From the NCBI GenBank assembly GCA_013151035.1, contig JAADJB010000033.1:1-64000 (forward strand): 64,000 bases of DNA, written 5' to 3'. Each line of letters begins with the position of its first letter. Within the stretch, counting starts at the first letter, position 1. Shown one piece after another: positions 5,035 to 60,135 of this stretch. The notes below the pieces were generated by a model. The model was not told the origin of the DNA. It worked only from the letters and a program-made list of their open reading frames with translations, and did no database searches. A program made the position numbers and the translations under genes. Source of the stretch: Gammaproteobacteria bacterium (GTDB taxonomy: Bacteria; Pseudomonadota; Gammaproteobacteria; JAADJB01).

Positions 5035-7938
5035 ATGTTAACAAATAATCTCGACGGACTTCGCGGTCGCTTTACTCTTTCTATTATTGCGGGTTTTGGG
5101 CTATCAATGGCGGCGGGTATTGCTGCTGCTATCCTGTTTAAAGCTCTCTCGCTGCCGGTTTTAATGGCATCATTACAAAGCTCGATATTTCCGCTCTATG
5201 TTATTGCGACCGTGGGCTGGGCGGCTATCCACTTCTCACGCTACCTAGGGCCTTTTATCTCCTGGTTACACCGTCACCCCGAAGGCGGTACAGCACCAAA
5301 TAACCTGCACCGCCACCTTGATCGCTTCGGGCGTGATTACTGGGGATTATTTCTGTTTTCCTCACTAGCAACACCGCTGGCCTGTTTGTTATCCGGGGGG
5401 GTCAGCCTGGCTGATATTGAGGTGACGAATATCATCTATTTCACCCTGCTACAATTAACGGCGGCGGTACTCATCGGGCTACCTGCCTATCTCGCAGCAC
5501 AAGATCGCCTTGGTCAGATTGTGGCTCACATGGGTCTGCACAAGGTACAACTCAGCATCAAATCCAAGATCATGTTACTCGGCGGCTTTGTCCCTCTGCT
5601 CTCATATTCCCTGTTATTGAACTACCACTGGACTCAAACCGGTACCCTGGACAGTTCGCTACTTTATATATGGGCAACACTGGCTATCACCACCCTCATT
5701 ATTACTGGTCTGTCGATTCAAGGCATGGCACAGGCTCTACGCCCGGTACAGATGATGCTCAGTCGTCATGGCGCATCAACGCGTAATGAACTGGCTCAAC
5801 TACGTGCCCAGTCAACCGATGAGATTGGTTACATGACACAAACCCTGGGCAAACTATTTCGTCGCCTGGGCGATCAGGAGTCTCATATCCGCACCGTAAT
5901 TGATGGTGCTGCCGAGGGTATTATCGTCATTGATAGCAAGGGTGTGATTGATAATTTCAACCCGGCTGCCGAACAACTGTTCGGTTATCTCTCACATGAG
6001 ATTGGTGGTCGCACCCTGTCCTGGTTACTACCCGACATCTTCGGTAAGGATAACCAAAAACCCAGGGGCATTACTCAAGCCATCGAGACCGCCGGACATC
6101 ATCGTAATGGTGATGCACTCTCAGTATCGGTGCGCGTTAGTGAAATGATGATTAGTGGCAAGCATATGTATACCTGCCTGGTCGCCGATATCTCCAAACG
6201 CAAAAGTGCCGAGAATCAATTAATGGATGCCGAAGCACGTTATCGGGATCTGGTGGAGACCGCACACGATCTGGTATGGAGTGCCGATGTGGATGGTAAC
6301 TGGACTTATCTTAATCGTGCCAGTTATGCCATCTATGGTCTGGAGCCAGGACAAATGCTGGGTCGCCCGATGTCTGATTTTTATTCTCTGGATCATGCCG
6401 ATGAAAACAATAAGGTGTTTGAAAGAATTACCCAGGGACATGAACTGGTGCAATATGAAACCGTGCATACCGATGCTAATGGCAAGCCTCATCACCTGAG
6501 TTTTAACGCCAAGGCACACTATGACAATGAAGGTAACATCATCCATATCAGTGGTACTGCACGAGACATCTCGGAACAAAAGGCCTTCCAGAAACAACTC
6601 GAATTCCAGGCCGAGCATGATGCCTTAACCGGTCTGTTTAATCGACGTTATTTTCAACAGGAACTGGAACGCACCGTATCACGCGTTGCCCGTAGTGGTA
6701 ATCCTTGCGCCCTGTGTTATATCGATCTTGATCAGTTCAAATATATTAATGATACCCTTGGTCATGCCGCCGGTGATCAACTGCTGATTGAGATTAGTAA
6801 GCTACTAATATCTTATGTTAGAGAAGGCGATCTACTGTCCCGTTTTGGTGGCGATGAATTTACCCTGTTACTGTATAACATCAATGCCGATGATCTCATG
6901 CTGGCCGCAGAAAACTTCCGTAGCCGTTTTGAAAAATATAAATTCTTCTACGACAGCAAGAGTTTTAACATTACCTGTAGCATCGGCATGGCGGTCATCG
7001 ACGGACAGACTAATTCCGCTGATGAGGTGCTTTCTCATGCCGACCTCGCCTGTAACATGGCCAAGACACAAGGGCGTAATTGCACCAATCTCTATAACCC
7101 CAGTCTGCGAGATAAAGACGGCATGGCTGAAGACATGGGCTGGGCTGCCAGAGTTCGTGAGATGTTGGAACATGATCGCTTCCAACTGGTTTACCAACCC
7201 ATTTTTTCGACTGATGATGGTCAGGTGCAGGACTATGAGGTACTGGTGCGCATGGTCTGCGAGGATGGTGGCGTTATTCTGCCCGGTGGCTTCATGCCTG
7301 CTGCCGAACGCTTTGGTTTAATCCACGCAGTGGATCGCTGGATTGTAAAACACGCCATACTAAAACTATCCGAACTACATAACAGTGGTCGCCAGGTCGC
7401 CTTCTCAATTAACCTTTCGGGTAAAGCCTTTGAGGATGAAACCCTGTTACCGATGATTCGTGATCTGATTACAGAGACACGCCTCGATCCCAAATGGATT
7501 ACCTTCGAGGTAACCGAGACCGCAGCGATTGCTAACATTAATGCCGCCACGACATTTATTCATGCACTCAAGGATATTGGTTGTCAGTTTGCGCTGGATG
7601 ATTTTGGTTCTGGTTTCTCATCCTTTGCCTACCTCAAACATCTCCCTGTCGACAGGCTCAAGATTGATGGCGCCTTTGTCCATGCTATGGCGAATGCACC
7701 GGTTGATCAAGCCATGGTTCAATCCATGAATCAGGTCGCCCATGCGCTGGGCAAGAAGACCGTTGCCGAACATGTTGAGGATGAAGCCACACTCAATCTA
7801 TTAAAAGAGTATGGTATCGACTTCGTGCAGGGTAATCATATCGGTATACCACAGAATTCACCCGAGGTGATCTCACTCGCCGGGTATAAAGAAAAAAGCC
7901 CGCTGGCTACGGTAGTAGCGTTACCATCCTCACGTTGA
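5035..7938 (+). CDS. Membrane PAS-PAS-GGDEF-EAL cyclic di-GMP protein
   Basis: A 967-residue inner-membrane signalling protein. The first ~235 residues hold several hydrophobic segments, then a HAMP-like linker, a PAS domain (~285-395), a second PAS with PAC (~400-520), a GGDEF domain and an EAL domain. The diguanylate cyclase motif GGDEF (from residue 605) is intact, and REGD five residues before it is an intact RxxD inhibitory site. The phosphodiesterase signature is EVL (residue 735), a tolerated EAL variant; NLSGKAF, EVTET, DDFGSG and KIDG keep the metal and catalytic residues, while the usual AEGVE is AEHVE. Both activities look possible. The gene is monocistronic. Confidence 0.93.
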   Translation: MLTNNLDGLRGRFTLSIIAGFGLSMAAGIAAAILFKALSLPVLMASLQSSIFPLYVIATVGWAAIHFSRYLGPFISWLHRHPEGGTAPNNLHRHLDRFGRDYWGLFLFSSLATPLACLLSGGVSLADIEVTNIIYFTLLQLTAAVLIGLPAYLAAQDRLGQIVAHMGLHKVQLSIKSKIMLLGGFVPLLSYSLLLNYHWTQTGTLDSSLLYIWATLAITTLIITGLSIQGMAQALRPVQMMLSRHGASTRNELAQLRAQSTDEIGYMTQTLGKLFRRLGDQESHIRTVIDGAAEGIIVIDSKGVIDNFNPAAEQLFGYLSHEIGGRTLSWLLPDIFGKDNQKPRGITQAIETAGHHRNGDALSVSVRVSEMMISGKHMYTCLVADISKRKSAENQLMDAEARYRDLVETAHDLVWSADVDGNWTYLNRASYAIYGLEPGQMLGRPMSDFYSLDHADENNKVFERITQGHELVQYETVHTDANGKPHHLSFNAKAHYDNEGNIIHISGTARDISEQKAFQKQLEFQAEHDALTGLFNRRYFQQELERTVSRVARSGNPCALCYIDLDQFKYINDTLGHAAGDQLLIEISKLLISYVREGDLLSRFGGDEFTLLLYNINADDLMLAAENFRSRFEKYKFFYDSKSFNITCSIGMAVIDGQTNSADEVLSHADLACNMAKTQGRNCTNLYNPSLRDKDGMAEDMGWAARVREMLEHDRFQLVYQPIFSTDDGQVQDYEVLVRMVCEDGGVILPGGFMPAAERFGLIHAVDRWIVKHAILKLSELHNSGRQVAFSINLSGKAFEDETLLPMIRDLITETRLDPKWITFEVTETAAIANINAATTFIHALKDIGCQFALDDFGSGFSSFAYLKHLPVDRLKIDGAFVHAMANAPVDQAMVQSMNQVAHALGKKTVAEHVEDEATLNLLKEYGIDFVQGNHIGIPQNSPEVISLAGYKEKSPLATVVALPSSR

Positions 7939-52236: not shown

Positions 52237-54324
52237 TTAATCACTGATTGATTGTAGGACAGAGATATCAGAAACTTGTAGAAACAGGTCTGCCAGTTGA
52301 TTTAATAGTGCCAGGCGATTGCCGCGTAGGGCATCATCTTTATCCATCACCATGACCTGATCAAAGAATTGGTCAACAGGGTCACGCAACTCAGCTAAGG
52401 TAGTGAGTGCACGGGTATAATCACCTTGTTCCAGCATCGGTGTGACCTGAGGATAAAGTGCCTCCAGGGCTGCGAATAATCTTTGTTCAGCGGCTTCCTT
52501 TAATAAGTCACTATTAACCTGAGCGGGTATGGCTTCATCGGTTTTGCGCAGGATATTACGAATTCTTTTGTTGGCGGCAGCCAGGGTCTCGGCCTCAGGT
52601 AATTTAATAAATTCATTACAAGCCAGGATGCGTTGATTAAAATCCAGAGGGCGTACGGGTTTAAGTTGATAGACCGATTCAAAGATATCCGGGCGTGTTC
52701 CCTTTTCTGCATACCAGGCACGTAGACGTTCCAGCATAAAATCAAAAACGCTGACCACTAATTGATCATCGTGTAAATCAGCATCCAGTTGATCGGCGGC
52801 TTGTTGTAATAATACCTGTAGATCCAGATCCAGTTCACACTCGATAATAATACGCAATACACTCAGTGCTGCACGGCGTAATGCAAACGGATCTTTATCT
52901 CCCGTGGGTGCCTGACCTAAGGAAAATATCCCGATCAAGGTATCAATACGATCTGCCAGGGCAAGGGTCTGACCAATCGCGGATACGGGTAATTCACCAC
53001 CGGCATTGCGTGGCATATATTGCTCGTTCAGTGCATTAGCAACCTCGGTATTCTCACCATCTTCCAGCGCATAGTAGCGTCCCATCGTGCCTTGCAGGTC
53101 AGGGAACTCACCCACCATATCGGTTAAAAGATCACATTTTGCTAACTGTGCTGCACGTTGAGCATGTTCTGTATTGGCACCGATATGACTAGCAATGGTC
53201 TGTGCCAGTTTAGCGACACGTTTTTGTTTGGCACCAATACTACCTAGCTTTTTCTGGAAGATAATATTATCCAGGGCAGCAACGCGCTGTGCCAGACTTT
53301 GTTTTTTATCTTGCTGCCAGAAGAAGACGGCATCGGCGAGGCGAGGTCGAATAACACGTTCATTACCGGATTGTATCTGTGCCGGATCTTTACTCTCAAT
53401 ATTGGCAATGGTAATAAAGTGAGGCAATAGTTTTCCATCCTGATCCAGTAGAGGAAAATATTTTTGATGATCTTGCATGGATGAGATTAGTGCTTCCGCC
53501 GGGATCTCAAGAAAGGCCTCGTCAAAACTGCCATGTATGGCTACCGGCCATTCAACCAGAGCTGTAACCTCATTCAATAAATCTGGGTCAATATGGGCTG
53601 TGCCCTTCAGTTCATTTGCGGTGGCATTAATCTGTTGCAGAATATTTGCTTTGCGCTTATCCATATCAGCAATAACCCATGCCTGTTCAGCCAGTATGGA
53701 TTCATAGTTGGCTGGCTGATCAATACGAATAGGTGCAGGGTGATGAAAGCGATGACCGTGGGTTTCACGAGCGGAGTCAATACCAAGAATATTGGTCTCG
53801 ATGACCTCATCGCCGAACAGTATCAGAACCCAGTGTACCGGACGCACAAACTCATCTTTTTTATCAGCCCAGCGCATACGCTTGGGAATAGGGAGTTTGT
53901 TTAATGCATTTTTAATAATATCAGGTATGAGTGCTGTTGTAGTCTGTCCTTGTTCGGTATTACGATAAACTAGCCAGGTCCCTTTTTTTTCGGTTTGCTG
54001 TTCTAGTTGTTCAACCTCAACACCACAGGATTTTGCAAACCCAAGAGCCGCCCGGGTTGGGCAACCCTCGTCATCAAAGGCAGCCGCAAGCGCAGGGCCC
54101 TTGCGTAAAACCTCCTGACTTTCTTGTGCCGATTGCAGGCCTGAAACCAGAATGGCAAGTCGTCTGGGTGTGGCAAAACTTTTGCTGGTGCTATACCTCA
54201 GTTTTGCTTTATCCAGTGCTTGACAGATTTCATTGGCAAAGACAGTGGATAACCGTTGCAGTGCCTTGGGAGGAAGTTCCTCGGTACCAATCTCTATGAG
54301 TAAATCATTATTCTCGTTGGTCAT
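52237..54324 (-). CDS. glyS: Glycyl-tRNA synthetase beta subunit
   Basis: A 695-residue beta chain of the bacterial tetrameric glycyl-tRNA synthetase. LLIEIGTEELPPKALQRL (~9-26), FATPRRLAILV (~50-60), LGSIGAKQKRVAKLA (~355) and the final anticodon-binding domain are typical. Length as in E. coli (689). It follows glyQ by 13 bases. Confidence 0.97.
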   Translation of the reverse strand: MTNENNDLLIEIGTEELPPKALQRLSTVFANEICQALDKAKLRYSTSKSFATPRRLAILVSGLQSAQESQEVLRKGPALAAAFDDEGCPTRAALGFAKSCGVEVEQLEQQTEKKGTWLVYRNTEQGQTTTALIPDIIKNALNKLPIPKRMRWADKKDEFVRPVHWVLILFGDEVIETNILGIDSARETHGHRFHHPAPIRIDQPANYESILAEQAWVIADMDKRKANILQQINATANELKGTAHIDPDLLNEVTALVEWPVAIHGSFDEAFLEIPAEALISSMQDHQKYFPLLDQDGKLLPHFITIANIESKDPAQIQSGNERVIRPRLADAVFFWQQDKKQSLAQRVAALDNIIFQKKLGSIGAKQKRVAKLAQTIASHIGANTEHAQRAAQLAKCDLLTDMVGEFPDLQGTMGRYYALEDGENTEVANALNEQYMPRNAGGELPVSAIGQTLALADRIDTLIGIFSLGQAPTGDKDPFALRRAALSVLRIIIECELDLDLQVLLQQAADQLDADLHDDQLVVSVFDFMLERLRAWYAEKGTRPDIFESVYQLKPVRPLDFNQRILACNEFIKLPEAETLAAANKRIRNILRKTDEAIPAQVNSDLLKEAAEQRLFAALEALYPQVTPMLEQGDYTRALTTLAELRDPVDQFFDQVMVMDKDDALRGNRLALLNQLADLFLQVSDISVLQSISD

Positions 54325-54337
54325 TTTAATGCTCGGT

Positions 54338-55240
54338 TTATGACGATTTTAACATCGGGAAGCCTTTTTCTTCACGGCTTTCATAATAGGTTTGGGCGAC
54401 GGCTCGGGACAGGGAGCGAACGCGTAATATATAACGTTGTCGTTCGGTCACAGAAATGGCCTTGCGTGTATCCAGCAGGTTAAAGGTGTGTGAGGCCTTG
54501 AGTACCATTTCATAGGCCGGTAGCGGTAAACCTTGTTCAATGAGTGACTGGCTTTCACTTTCACAGGTATCAAACCACTGAAACAGCGATTCAATATTGG
54601 CGTGTTCAAAGTTGTAGGTCGACATCTCGACTTCATTTTGATGAAAGACATCATGGTAGGTCACAGGGCCATCCGGGCCATGAGTCCAGATCAGATCATA
54701 GACACTTTCTACACCTTGCAGATACATGGCGATACGTTCCAGCCCGTAGGTGATTTCACCGGTTACGGGACGACAGTCCAGTCCACCGACTTGTTGGAAA
54801 TAGGTGAATTGGGTGACCTCCATACCATTGAGCCATACCTCCCAGCCCAGACCCCAGGCACCCAGTGTAGGGGATTCCCAGTTATCTTCAACAAAACGGA
54901 TATCGTGAACAAGAGGATCAATGCCCAGTTGCTTTAATGATTCCAGGTAATACTCCTGGATCTTTAACGGGGAGGGTTTGAGGATAACCTGAAATTGATA
55001 ATAGTGTTGCAGCCGGTTAGGGTTTTCGCCATAGCGCCCATCGGTGGGTCGTCGGGAGGGTTGCACATAGGCAGCACGCCAGGGTTCAGGGCCAATCGAG
55101 CGCAGAAAAGTGGAGGGATGAAAGGTACCGGCACCCACTTCCATATCAAGCGGTTGTATCAGTGTACAACCTTGTTTGGCCCAGTATTGCTGCAGTGCCA
55201 TTATCAGGCCCTGAAAGGTTTTTACATCGGGATTAGTCAT
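54338..55240 (-). CDS. glyQ: Glycyl-tRNA synthetase alpha subunit
   Basis: A 300-residue alpha catalytic chain. [33 protein letters not shown] (~8-40), [23 protein letters not shown] (~62-84) and [10 protein letters not shown] (~165) are invariant blocks. It is the first gene of the glyQ-glyS-mazG-gmhB-plsC unit. Confidence 0.98.
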
Positions 55241-56116: not shown

Positions 56117-57160
56117 ATGACAAAAAAACGTAAGGCAGTTGCCTTGATATCCGGGGGACTGGATTCATTGTTGGCGGCAAGGGTAATGCAGGAACAAGGC
56201 ATTCATGTGGAGGGGATTAACTTCTACACGGGGTTTTGTGTTGAGGGGCATACTCATGCTATCCGCAAAAAGGATAAGAATAAGCCAAAACGTAATAATG
56301 CCCTGTGGTCAGCCGAGCAGTTGGGTATTAAACTACATATCGTTGATATTATCGAAGAGTACAAGGATGTATTGATCAATCCCAAGCATGGTTATGGTGC
56401 TAATCTAAATCCTTGTTTAGATTGTAAAATATTCATGGTTAAGAAGGCTCAGGAGTGGATTGAAGAGCATGATTTTGATTTTATTATTACCGGAGAGGTG
56501 GTTGGTCAACGACCTAAATCACAACGTAAGGACACCATGCCGGTGATTGCCGCTCAATCCGGTGCTGAGGACAGGTTGTTACGACCCTTATGTGCAAAAA
56601 ATCTCCCGGAAACCTTGCCAGAACGAGAGGGTTGGGTAAAAAGGGAGGAATTACTCGGTTTTAGTGGTCGAACGCGTAAGCCACAAATAGCCTTAGCCAA
56701 GCACTTTGGTTTTGAGGACTATGCCCAGCCAGCGGGGGGCTGTTGTTTTCTGACGGATGAAAAATACAGTAATAAGCTGGTTGATTTATGGCAAAACCGG
56801 GGCTGTAAGGAATATGAGATTGATGACATTATGATGCTTAAAGTGGGGAGACATATCAGGCCTGCGGCTAATTTTAAGCTGATTGTAGGAAGAGAAGAGG
56901 GTGAAAACCGATTCTTAGAGGGATATAAGAAGAGTTTTACCTATTTTCATGTGATAGATTTTAATGGCCCATTGGTTCTGCTTGATGGTTCAGCGAGTGA
57001 GGAGGATCTGATCCTGGCAGCCAGAATTATTGGTCGCTTTAGTCAGGGTAAAGATGCCGAACAGATACAGGTTAAGATGGTGCAAGTGGACGGGCTGGAA
57101 CGGGTGTTCGAGGTCAAACCCTTGCCGGCATCCGAATTTCCGCAGGCGTGGTATCTATGA
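56117..57160 (+). CDS. PP-loop ATP-pyrophosphatase, ThiI/MnmA-like
   Basis: A 347-residue tRNA-thiolation-like enzyme. The PP-loop is SGGLDSLLA (~12-20); NPCLDCKIFM (~99-108) is a CxxC reminiscent of MnmA; PAGGCCFLTDEKYSNKL (~206-222) adds two cysteines and a motif seen in this COG0482-like family; a C-terminal NFACT-R-like region follows. The next gene is a TusA-like sulfur carrier overlapping it (ATGA), so a sulfur relay is inferred. Substrate unknown. Confidence 0.8.
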   Translation: MTKKRKAVALISGGLDSLLAARVMQEQGIHVEGINFYTGFCVEGHTHAIRKKDKNKPKRNNALWSAEQLGIKLHIVDIIEEYKDVLINPKHGYGANLNPCLDCKIFMVKKAQEWIEEHDFDFIITGEVVGQRPKSQRKDTMPVIAAQSGAEDRLLRPLCAKNLPETLPEREGWVKREELLGFSGRTRKPQIALAKHFGFEDYAQPAGGCCFLTDEKYSNKLVDLWQNRGCKEYEIDDIMMLKVGRHIRPAANFKLIVGREEGENRFLEGYKKSFTYFHVIDFNGPLVLLDGSASEEDLILAARIIGRFSQGKDAEQIQVKMVQVDGLERVFEVKPLPASEFPQAWYL

Positions 57161-57402
57161 TAACTCATCAGATTGATGCGCGTTTTATGCTTTGTCCACT
57201 GCCCGTCATCAGAACGCAGGATATGATTAAGGATTTGCCTACGGGGGATTTACTGGAAATCACCTGTACTGATCCTGGTGCCTTGCATGATATCCCGGCC
57301 TGGTGCCGAGTGCATGGTCATGAAGTTGTTGATACTCTGGAACAGGATAACGAGATTATTATTACCGTCAGGGCGATACAGGAAGAGGTTCCTGAAAAAT
57401 AA
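57157..57402 (+). CDS. TusA-like sulfur carrier protein
   Basis: An 81-residue sulfurtransferase carrier from ATG 57157. DARFMLCPLPVIRTQ (residues 7-21) contains the family CPxP with Cys13 as persulfide site. It overlaps the PP-loop gene by four bases and the CDF start by one base. In the operon it probably gives sulfur to the PP-loop enzyme. Confidence 0.88.
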   Translation: MITHQIDARFMLCPLPVIRTQDMIKDLPTGDLLEITCTDPGALHDIPAWCRVHGHEVVDTLEQDNEIIITVRAIQEEVPEK

Positions 57403-58541
57403 TGAACAGGATGACCAAACATTACCCGGAGGTACGCAAGGTAACCATTGTTGGTTTGTTGGTTAATTTGGTTTTGAGCGTTATCAAAGTAATGGGTGGC
57501 TGGTTGTTACATTCCCAGGCGTTGGTTGCCGATGGTATTCATTCGCTCTCTGATCTGATTACTGATTTTATGGTGCTCTATGCGGCAAAGCACTCGCATC
57601 GTGAAGCGGATGAAAATCACCCTTATGGGCATGGTCGTATTGAGACCCTGGCAACCGTTGCCCTGGGTATTTTATTGTTGCTGGTTGCTATCGGGATTGC
57701 CTATGATGCGGTGAGTCGTTTATTCCATCCGGAAACCTTATTGATACCTGGTGCGTTGACCCTGGTGATCGCTATTATATCGGTATTGAGTAAGGAGGCC
57801 TTATATTGGTATACGATGAATGCTGCTAACAAGGTGCGTTCACCTATATTAAAGGCGAATGCCTGGCATCATCGTTCGGATGCCATCTCTTCTATCGTGG
57901 TGTTGGTGGGCATCCTAGGTACGATGTCGGGTTTGGCGTATCTGGATGCGATTGCTGCGGTGGGTGTTGCCTTGATGATTGCAAAAATTGCTATTGATCT
58001 GGGTATGAATAGTTTGTATGAGTTGATTGATACGGCCTTGAACAGGGATGAGGTTAATGAGATTCGCGCTGCTATTTTGAATATTTACGGTGTCCGTTCG
58101 TTGCACATGTTGAGGAGTCGACGTAGTGGCGGTGATGTCTTGATTGATCTACATCTACAGGTTGATTCAACCCTGAGTGTCTCGGAGGGGCATCAGATTG
58201 GCGAGGCGGTGCGTCTTCGTTTGCAGGGGGAGTTTGAGGATATCTCTGATGTGACGGTGCATATTGATCCAGAGGATGATGAGGAAAATTCACCTTCGGA
58301 GGGTTTGCCTTTACGTGCTGAGGTGACGCAAGATTTACAAAAGCAGTGGTCGGGTATTATTGATTTTGATCAGATAAAAAAAATCACCTTGCATTATCTG
58401 AGTGGTAAGGTGCATATTGATGTGGTTTTACCTATTCATCTACTGGATAATATTGAGTCAGCTGATGATTTATCATCGCAACTGGTCGAGAAGGCGCGTG
58501 AATTGGTTGTGGTTGGAGAAGTGAAGGTATATTATCGCTAA
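57402..58541 (+). CDS. Cation diffusion facilitator (FieF/MamM-like)
   Basis: A 379-residue divalent-metal/proton antiporter with about six membrane helices. Metal sites: HSLSD (His47, Asp51) and HHRSD (~152-156) match HxxxD/DxxxD sites of FieF-type CDFs. A cytoplasmic C-terminal domain follows, here extended by ~70 residues beyond the usual. Its start overlaps the TusA stop (TAATG). Metal type (Fe, Zn, Mn) not told; extended tail is odd. Confidence 0.92.
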   Translation: MNRMTKHYPEVRKVTIVGLLVNLVLSVIKVMGGWLLHSQALVADGIHSLSDLITDFMVLYAAKHSHREADENHPYGHGRIETLATVALGILLLLVAIGIAYDAVSRLFHPETLLIPGALTLVIAIISVLSKEALYWYTMNAANKVRSPILKANAWHHRSDAISSIVVLVGILGTMSGLAYLDAIAAVGVALMIAKIAIDLGMNSLYELIDTALNRDEVNEIRAAILNIYGVRSLHMLRSRRSGGDVLIDLHLQVDSTLSVSEGHQIGEAVRLRLQGEFEDISDVTVHIDPEDDEENSPSEGLPLRAEVTQDLQKQWSGIIDFDQIKKITLHYLSGKVHIDVVLPIHLLDNIESADDLSSQLVEKARELVVVGEVKVYYR

Positions 58542-58725: not shown

Positions 58726-60135
58726 ATGTCCGCAACTAAAGTTATCAAGCAAATTAAGGACAAGGGGATCAAGTTTGTTGATCTTCGTTTTACAGATACC
58801 ATTGGTAAAGAACAGCATGTAACGATGCCATCGAATGTCGTTAATGCAAAATTCTTTAAAGAAGGCAAGATGTTTGATGGTTCAAGCATCGCTGGCTGGA
58901 AGGGTATTAACGAATCAGACATGGTGTTGTTACCTGATTCAACCAGCGCTTTTATTGATCCATTCATGGATGAGCCAACCATCATTATCCGTTGTGATAT
59001 CCTGGAGCCAAGCACCATGAAGGGTTATGAGCGTGATCCACGTTCTATTGCTCGTCGTGCCGAGGCTTATTTAAAATCAACCAAGATTGGTGATACTGCT
59101 TTCTTTGGTCCTGAGCCAGAATTTTTTATCCTTGATGATGTGCGTTGGGGATCGAATATGCAGGGTTCCTTCTATAAGGTGAACTCTGATGAGGCATGCT
59201 GGAATTCAGAGCACGTCTTTGAAGATGGCAACATTGGTCATCGTCCTGGTGTGAAGGGTGGTTATTTCCCTGTTCCTCCCGTTGATTCCCTGCATGATAT
59301 TCGTGCCTCCATGTGTATGGCAATGGAAGAGATGGGTCTGAAGGTTGAGGTGCATCACCATGAGGTAGCCACAGCCGGTCAGTGTGAGATTGGTACCGAG
59401 TTTAATACCTTGTTGAAGAAGGCTGATGAGGTTCAAATCCTGAAGTATGCAGTACACAATATTGCTCACATCTACGGTAAGACAGCAACCTTCATGCCGA
59501 AGCCAGTAGTGGGTGATAATGGTAGTGGTATGCATGTTCACATGTCGATTGGCAAGGCAGGCAAGAATATCTTCTCAGGTAACAAGTATGGTGGTCTGTC
59601 CGAGAAGGCATTGTATTATATTGGTGGTATCTTCAAACATGCGCGTGCATTAAATGCCTTTACCAATGCCAGTACCAATAGTTACAAGCGTCTGGTTCCT
59701 GGTTTTGAGGCACCTGTTATGTTGGCTTATTCAGCGCGTAACCGTTCTGCTTCTGTGCGTATTCCATTTGATTCAAATGTCAAGGCACGTCGTATTGAGG
59801 TGCGTTTCCCTGATCCAACAGCGAATCCATACCTGGCATTTGCTGCCTTGTTGATGGCAGGCCTTGATGGTATCAAGAACAAGATTCATCCGGGTGAAGC
59901 GATGGATAAGGATCTTTATGATCTGCCACCAGAAGAAGAGAAGAAGATCAAGACCGTGAGTACTTCTCTCGAGATGGCACTGCAAGAGCTGGATAAGGAT
60001 CGTAAGTTCCTGACTGCAGGTGGTGTATTTACAGATGATACGATCGATGCCTATATTAAATTGAAGATGGCAGATGTCACTCGTTTGAACATGACAACTC
60101 ATCCTGATGAGTTTGATATGTATTACAGCTTGTAA
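58726..60135 (+). CDS. glnA: Glutamine synthetase type I
   Basis: A 469-residue ammonia-assimilating enzyme, E. coli length. [17 protein letters not shown] (~48-64), the ATP-binding region [25 protein letters not shown] (~245-269), and NLY-like adenylylation site [12 protein letters not shown] (Tyr ~398) show a GlnE-regulated class I-beta enzyme. Followed by a terminator and then DUF4124-ntrBC. Confidence 0.98.

Follow-up and report, generated by a model that had tools for sequence, protein, structure and literature searches.

Three overlapping genes, all read from the plus strand, lie at positions 56117-58541 of the window, by which we mean the whole 64,000-nucleotide stretch of gammaproteobacterial DNA that was analysed (Table 1). 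The first encodes a protein which we call PP-NFACT, the second a small protein of a distinct TusA subtype and the third a CDF transporter. The sharing of stop and start codons at both junctions, described in an earlier note made from the letters alone, is indeed present, as ATGA at 57157-57160 and as TAATG at 57400-57404. At the loci of other genomes the junction between PP-NFACT and TusA is an exact 4-base overlap (ATGA, GTGA or TTGA) in 25 of 58 and stays within 30 bases in 47 of 58, while that between TusA and CDF stays within 30 bases in 27 of 34. Since such tight junctions recur in these other loci, the overlap exceeds chance and is a property of the gene families.

Table 1. Features of the PP-NFACT, TusA and CDF locus, in window coordinates
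Feature	Position	Strand	Details
PP-NFACT gene (gene 1)	56117..57160	+	347 aa; PP-loop ATPase/sulfurtransferase core, about residues 1-240, and NFACT-R_2, residues 244-346
PP-loop motif SGGLDS, residues 12-17 (adenylation site)	56150..56167	+	S12, G13, G14, L15, D16 and S17 invariant in 36 aligned homologues
C100-L-D-C103 (CxxC) of PP-NFACT	56414..56425	+	Invariant; aligned to the genome's own MnmA and to 2der
C209-C210 of PP-NFACT	56741..56746	+	C210 invariant; aligned to the second catalytic Cys of MnmA (GxCF)
NFACT-R_2 domain (PF18297) of PP-NFACT	56846..57154	+	E=4.8e-34; fold match to 5h3w and RqcH 8s1u
TusA subtype gene (gene 2), DIPAWCR-GH motif, persulfide carrier candidate	57157..57402	+	81 aa from ATG at 57157; PF01206 E=9e-21, alignment, separate score class
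Cys13 of CPxP in TusA subtype, expected persulfide-bearing residue	57193..57195	+	C13, P14 and P16 invariant in 20 sequences
CDF transporter gene (gene 3), YiiP/FieF-like	57402..58541	+	379 aa; predicted site H47/D51/H156/D160
CDF C-terminal extension, residues 300-379, probably a second, diverged ZT_dimer-like alpha-beta domain	58299..58538	+	
glnA, conserved downstream neighbour	58726..60135	+	Context, outside the system
glyS and glyQ, conserved upstream neighbours	52237..55240	-	Context

Domain composition of the three proteins

The PP-loop core of PP-NFACT is followed at the C-terminus by an NFACT-R_2 domain, which matched the full Pfam profile with 117 bits against a gathering score of 26.9. 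The core itself is almost equally similar to the Pfam domains ThiI (PF02568, 46.5 bits) and tRNA_Me_trans/MnmA (PF03054, 42.9 bits). With the curated models it reached 44.6 bits for ThiI (TIGR00342), over the PP-loop part only, where the cut-off is 264.5, and 41-46 bits for MnmA (TIGR00420/PRK00143), where the cut-offs are 237-284; because these scores lie far under both, PP-NFACT belongs to neither family. The CxxC (C100, C103) and CC (C209, C210) motifs noticed earlier were recovered in the translation, and SGGLDS, C100, C103 and C210 did not vary among 36 homologues, the most distant of which is 46% identical, the three conserved cysteines showing the CxxC plus C layout of CxxC-C sulfurtransferases. 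When aligned with the 364-aa MnmA of the same genome, C103 corresponds to the first and C210 to the second catalytic cysteine, C100 falls on the Asp of DxxC-type MnmA, and SGGxDS and both MnmA catalytic cysteines are thus retained in the aligned columns. An AlphaFold model (mean pLDDT 91) matched MnmA, ThiI, TtuA with [4Fe-4S] and LarE with [4Fe-4S], and its C-terminal part matched the NFACT-R domains of FbpS and RqcH. The proper term for this gene is thiolation (sulfurtransferase)-like and not "thiolase-like", as it had been labelled. Divergent PP-NFACT proteins of 46-53% identity were noticed in three genomes devoid of the TusA subtype (L061, L062 and L063, from G103, G054 and G094), which possibly represent a subfamily with another sulfur donor.

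The product of gene 2 matched the TusA Pfam family (PF01206) with 73.9 bits, above the gathering score, and carries the conserved CPxP. It shares this persulfide motif and the TusA fold family with E. coli TusA, but scored 42.8 bits with the TusA equivalog model (PRK00299; curated cut-off 78), bears the motif DIPAWCR-GH which marks its subtype, and is paired with PP-NFACT rather than with TusBCD-TusE. A profile of the subtype separated cleanly, with members at 95 bits or above and other TusA proteins at 77 bits or below.

Gene 3 encodes a CDF protein (TIGR01297, 256 bits; cut-off 82.35), with YiiP/FieF as its best PDB matches in both sequence and fold. It differs from YiiP in its metal site, predicted by alignment as given in Table 1 where YiiP has DD-HD, and in an extra domain at the C-terminus. 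The extended C-terminus reported earlier for this exporter was borne out as a conserved extension, kept across the family with H331, Y332 and G335 invariant, folded as beta-beta-alpha-beta in the structure model and collinear with the ZT_dimer region of the same protein (hhalign, 71 columns, E=2e-4). Because it is conserved in the family and collinear with that region, the extension is probably another domain of the ZT_dimer kind, in diverged form.

Pairing of the genes across genomes

The earlier note had made its reading depend on the three genes keeping company elsewhere, and a gene neighbourhood survey demonstrated that they do. The order glyQS (on the opposite strand), PP-NFACT, TusA, often CDF, glnA, DUF4124 and ntrBC recurs across gammaproteobacterial families; of 58 gammaproteobacterial loci, 48 have TusA after PP-NFACT and about 31 have the three genes together. 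At the level of families PP-NFACT was found in 70 of 143 and the TusA subtype in 66, with 65 in common (Fisher p=2e-33), and the two co-occur even where they lie on separate contigs or are some 29 kb from each other; the subtype was missing from five of the 70 families with PP-NFACT. One locus (L229, G089:C12) holds the TusA subtype, CDF, glnA, DUF4124 and ntrBC and no PP-NFACT, in a genome which is 76% complete.

The CDF gene is associated with PP-NFACT as well, being present in 57 of 70 families with it versus 17 of 73 without it (p=2e-12). It remains adjacent to TusA in five genomes where PP-NFACT has moved (G126, G140, G074, G092 and G096), and the series PP-NFACT, TusA, CDF occurs without a nearby glnA in another class of the phylum (L331, L332, L334, L336 and L328). 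On the other side, 13 of the 70 families with PP-NFACT lack CDF and 17 families without PP-NFACT retain it, five of them (G015, G079, G087, G042 and G073) directly upstream of glnA and with neither PP-NFACT nor TusA. In one locus (L230, G030:C1:274000-286000, at about 6318-6896) CDF is intact, while PP-NFACT and TusA next to it have decayed to fragments that contain stop codons and match in part; PP-NFACT is full-length in three relatives belonging to the same family. Because CDF is absent from the former 13 and present in the latter 17 families, and in view of the decay in G030, the functional unit, as judged from these distributions, is PP-NFACT with TusA, and CDF is an old, frequent but optional partner. 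The coupling to a metal exporter proposed in the earlier note thus stands as a statistical association that extends behind TusA into another class, and falls as a fixed one in the same 13 and 17 families. No mechanism joining sulfur transfer and metal export was found in this analysis.

Distribution with respect to ThiI and RudS

ThiI is the enzyme which thiolates bacterial tRNA at position 8 and is treated as the 4-thiouridine (s4U) enzyme; genomes without ThiI are read as being without s4U, which serves as a near-UV sensor and tRNA stabiliser. Among 329 gammaproteobacterial genomes PP-NFACT was present in 164 and ThiI in 28, and no genome had both where 14 were expected (p=1e-9 by genome and 2e-8 by genus, statistics which ignore relatedness); no family had both either. 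ThiI occurred in nine of the 143 families sampled, as against 70 for PP-NFACT. A wider draw of 249 genomes of the phylum gave NFACT-R_2 in 29, ThiI in 77 and both in none (p=1e-5, again ignoring relatedness). An rpoB tree covering 70 of these genomes showed at least 10 changes of the ThiI state on supported branches and at least 11 switches of the ThiI/PP-NFACT states, with the members of sister pairs differing (G007/G162, G056/G313); since the genomes share descent, strictly independent pairs, about six informative ones at most, gave a median p=0.06. In two genomes thiI divergently adjoins glnA, in the place held elsewhere by PP-NFACT and TusA (L211 in G162, L228 in G161), and G007, the rpoB sister of G162, has the PP-NFACT-TusA neighbourhood. 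For an in-place exchange of thiI for PP-NFACT, these two divergent loci, the only ones beside glnA among the ThiI loci examined, are supportive at most. Replacement of TtcA was rejected, as TtcA is present in 60 of the 70 families with PP-NFACT and there is no exclusion, and so, for the genome of the window, was replacement of MnmA, of which that genome has a separate copy. TtcA scores in G000 to G142 formed two classes separated by a gap from about 234 to about 318 bits, with the genome of the window in the lower one, which suggests two TtcA subfamilies in Gammaproteobacteria.

RudS is a desulfidase that takes the sulfur of 4-thiouridine out of tRNA; it mostly accompanies ThiI, but groups with RudS and without ThiI also exist, for which either ThiI homologues of other architecture or a lack of s4U has been suggested (PMC11417400). 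If PP-NFACT makes s4U, RudS in ThiI-less genomes should therefore track PP-NFACT, and this prediction was tested in the first 24 ThiI-less genomes with and the first 24 without PP-NFACT, in numeric order, all at least 95% complete and at least 1 Mb in size. DUF1722 was found in 12 of the 24 genomes with PP-NFACT versus none of the 24 without, and full TudS-DUF1722 RudS in 11 versus none (p=2e-4), nine of these being called by Pfam scan and two (G034 and G036) by reading of ORFs. RudS was missing from 13 of the 24 ThiI-less genomes with PP-NFACT, that of the window among them. The DUF1722 match of G022 was left out of the count, as it belongs to a Pyr_excise/DUF1722-like protein. A pyrimidine-dimer-glycosylase-like protein (Pyr_excise) with a partial C-terminal DUF1722 match, and no RudS, is encoded at L350:1357-2067 on the minus strand in a genome with PP-NFACT.

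Proposed reaction, alternatives and significance

We argue, with a probability of roughly three in four, that PP-NFACT acts with the adjacent TusA subtype as a pair which thiolates tRNA and makes 4-thiouridine, most likely at U8, where ThiI is absent. The tRNA would be held by the NFACT-R domain while the PP-loop adenylates C4 of the uridine at the expense of ATP; the TusA subtype would carry persulfide sulfur from a cysteine desulfurase, and this sulfur may then move via the C100/C103/C210 centre and displace AMP. The centre probably holds an Fe-S cluster, [4Fe-4S] or else [3Fe-4S], like those of TtuA and of CxxC-C MnmA, that of Thermus carrying [4Fe-4S] (PMC8584467). As an optional neighbour, CDF would perhaps keep Zn2+ or Fe2+ off the thiol-rich centre. 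The part played by a PP-loop enzyme and a TusA-like carrier in RNA thiolation, put forward earlier, is well supported and has been narrowed to tRNA 4-thiouridine formation as a substitute for ThiI.

Against s4U as the product counts the catalytic core, which is as similar to the C2-thiolating MnmA as to ThiI. The shared descent of the genomes, the carriers without RudS and the five families with PP-NFACT but no TusA subtype weigh against our reading as well. The near-equal domain scores for ThiI and MnmA, together with the alignment to MnmA across both catalytic cysteines, would suit a pair that thiolates RNA elsewhere, be it tRNA or rRNA, and yields C2-thiouridine or thiocytidine, with the avoidance of ThiI being lineage history; a ribosome-linked target is conceivable since the corresponding domain of RqcH, NFACT-R, is located on the ribosome close to the A-site finger (PMC8012679). 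However, the MnmA and TtcA sites are already served in the same genomes, the exclusion of ThiI recurs over the supported changes in the tree, and RudS, which is specific to s4U, tracks PP-NFACT, and we consider thiolation at another site unlikely. A cofactor could be thiolated instead of RNA, in the manner of LarE and with NFACT-R in another role, as the PP-NFACT model also matches LarE; yet LarE is one among several model matches, NFACT-R_2 carries an annotation as an RNA-binding domain, and the distribution of ThiI and RudS indicates tRNA, which makes a cofactor target very improbable.

A single module of all three genes, in which CDF clears the metal of the carrier or balances the cofactor for the Fe-S site, would account for the association of CDF with PP-NFACT and for its adjacency to TusA both where PP-NFACT has moved and where glnA is absent in another class. 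It would also agree with the reported influence of TusA on iron homeostasis in E. coli (PMC11302051). The families having one without the other, the CDF genes standing alone before glnA and the intact CDF beside decayed partners in G030 speak against it, and we regard such a module as quite unlikely.

With ThiI, PP-NFACT shares the PP-loop core, the expected product, the occasional place beside glnA and a mutually exclusive distribution; unlike ThiI, it starts with the PP-loop, has no THUMP, NFLD or rhodanese domain, and possesses a C-terminal NFACT-R_2, a three-cysteine centre and a dedicated TusA. With the CxxC-C subtype of MnmA (tRNA 2-thiouridine(34) synthase) it agrees in the fold of the core, in SGGxDS, in the two catalytic cysteines and in the CxxC-C layout, but it lacks the MnmA C-terminal domains and scores 46 bits where the cut-off is 284. 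TtuA, LarE and archaeal CxxC-type ThiI are likewise PP-loop enzymes with three cysteines, theirs holding [4Fe-4S] or [3Fe-4S], but they use other RNA-binding modules and sulfur donors. With the NFACT proteins (RqcH/Rqc2, FbpA) the NFACT-R domain is common, whereas NFACT-N, HhH and coiled coil are absent from PP-NFACT. Our literature search found no paper tying NFACT-R to ThiI, PP-loop or TusA; Burroughs and Aravind (2014) may mention NFACT-R fused to thiouridine-synthase-like domains, possibly with a prediction of thiouridine synthesis.

The first two genes thus likely represent a widespread, unstudied replacement of ThiI. It is also probable that PP-NFACT and its dedicated TusA constitute a second, ThiI-independent family of bacterial 4-thiouridine synthases, with an Fe-S sulfur-transfer centre and tRNA binding by NFACT-R, which is present in about half of gammaproteobacterial families and would be the source, in bacteria without ThiI, of the s4U removed by RudS. 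PP-NFACT would offer a simple test case of how another RNA-binding domain and a TusA donor may replace THUMP and rhodanese. If it makes s4U, part of the puzzle of RudS without ThiI (PMC11417400) could be explained, and many bacteria counted as ThiI-less would possess the near-UV sensor and tRNA stabiliser after all.
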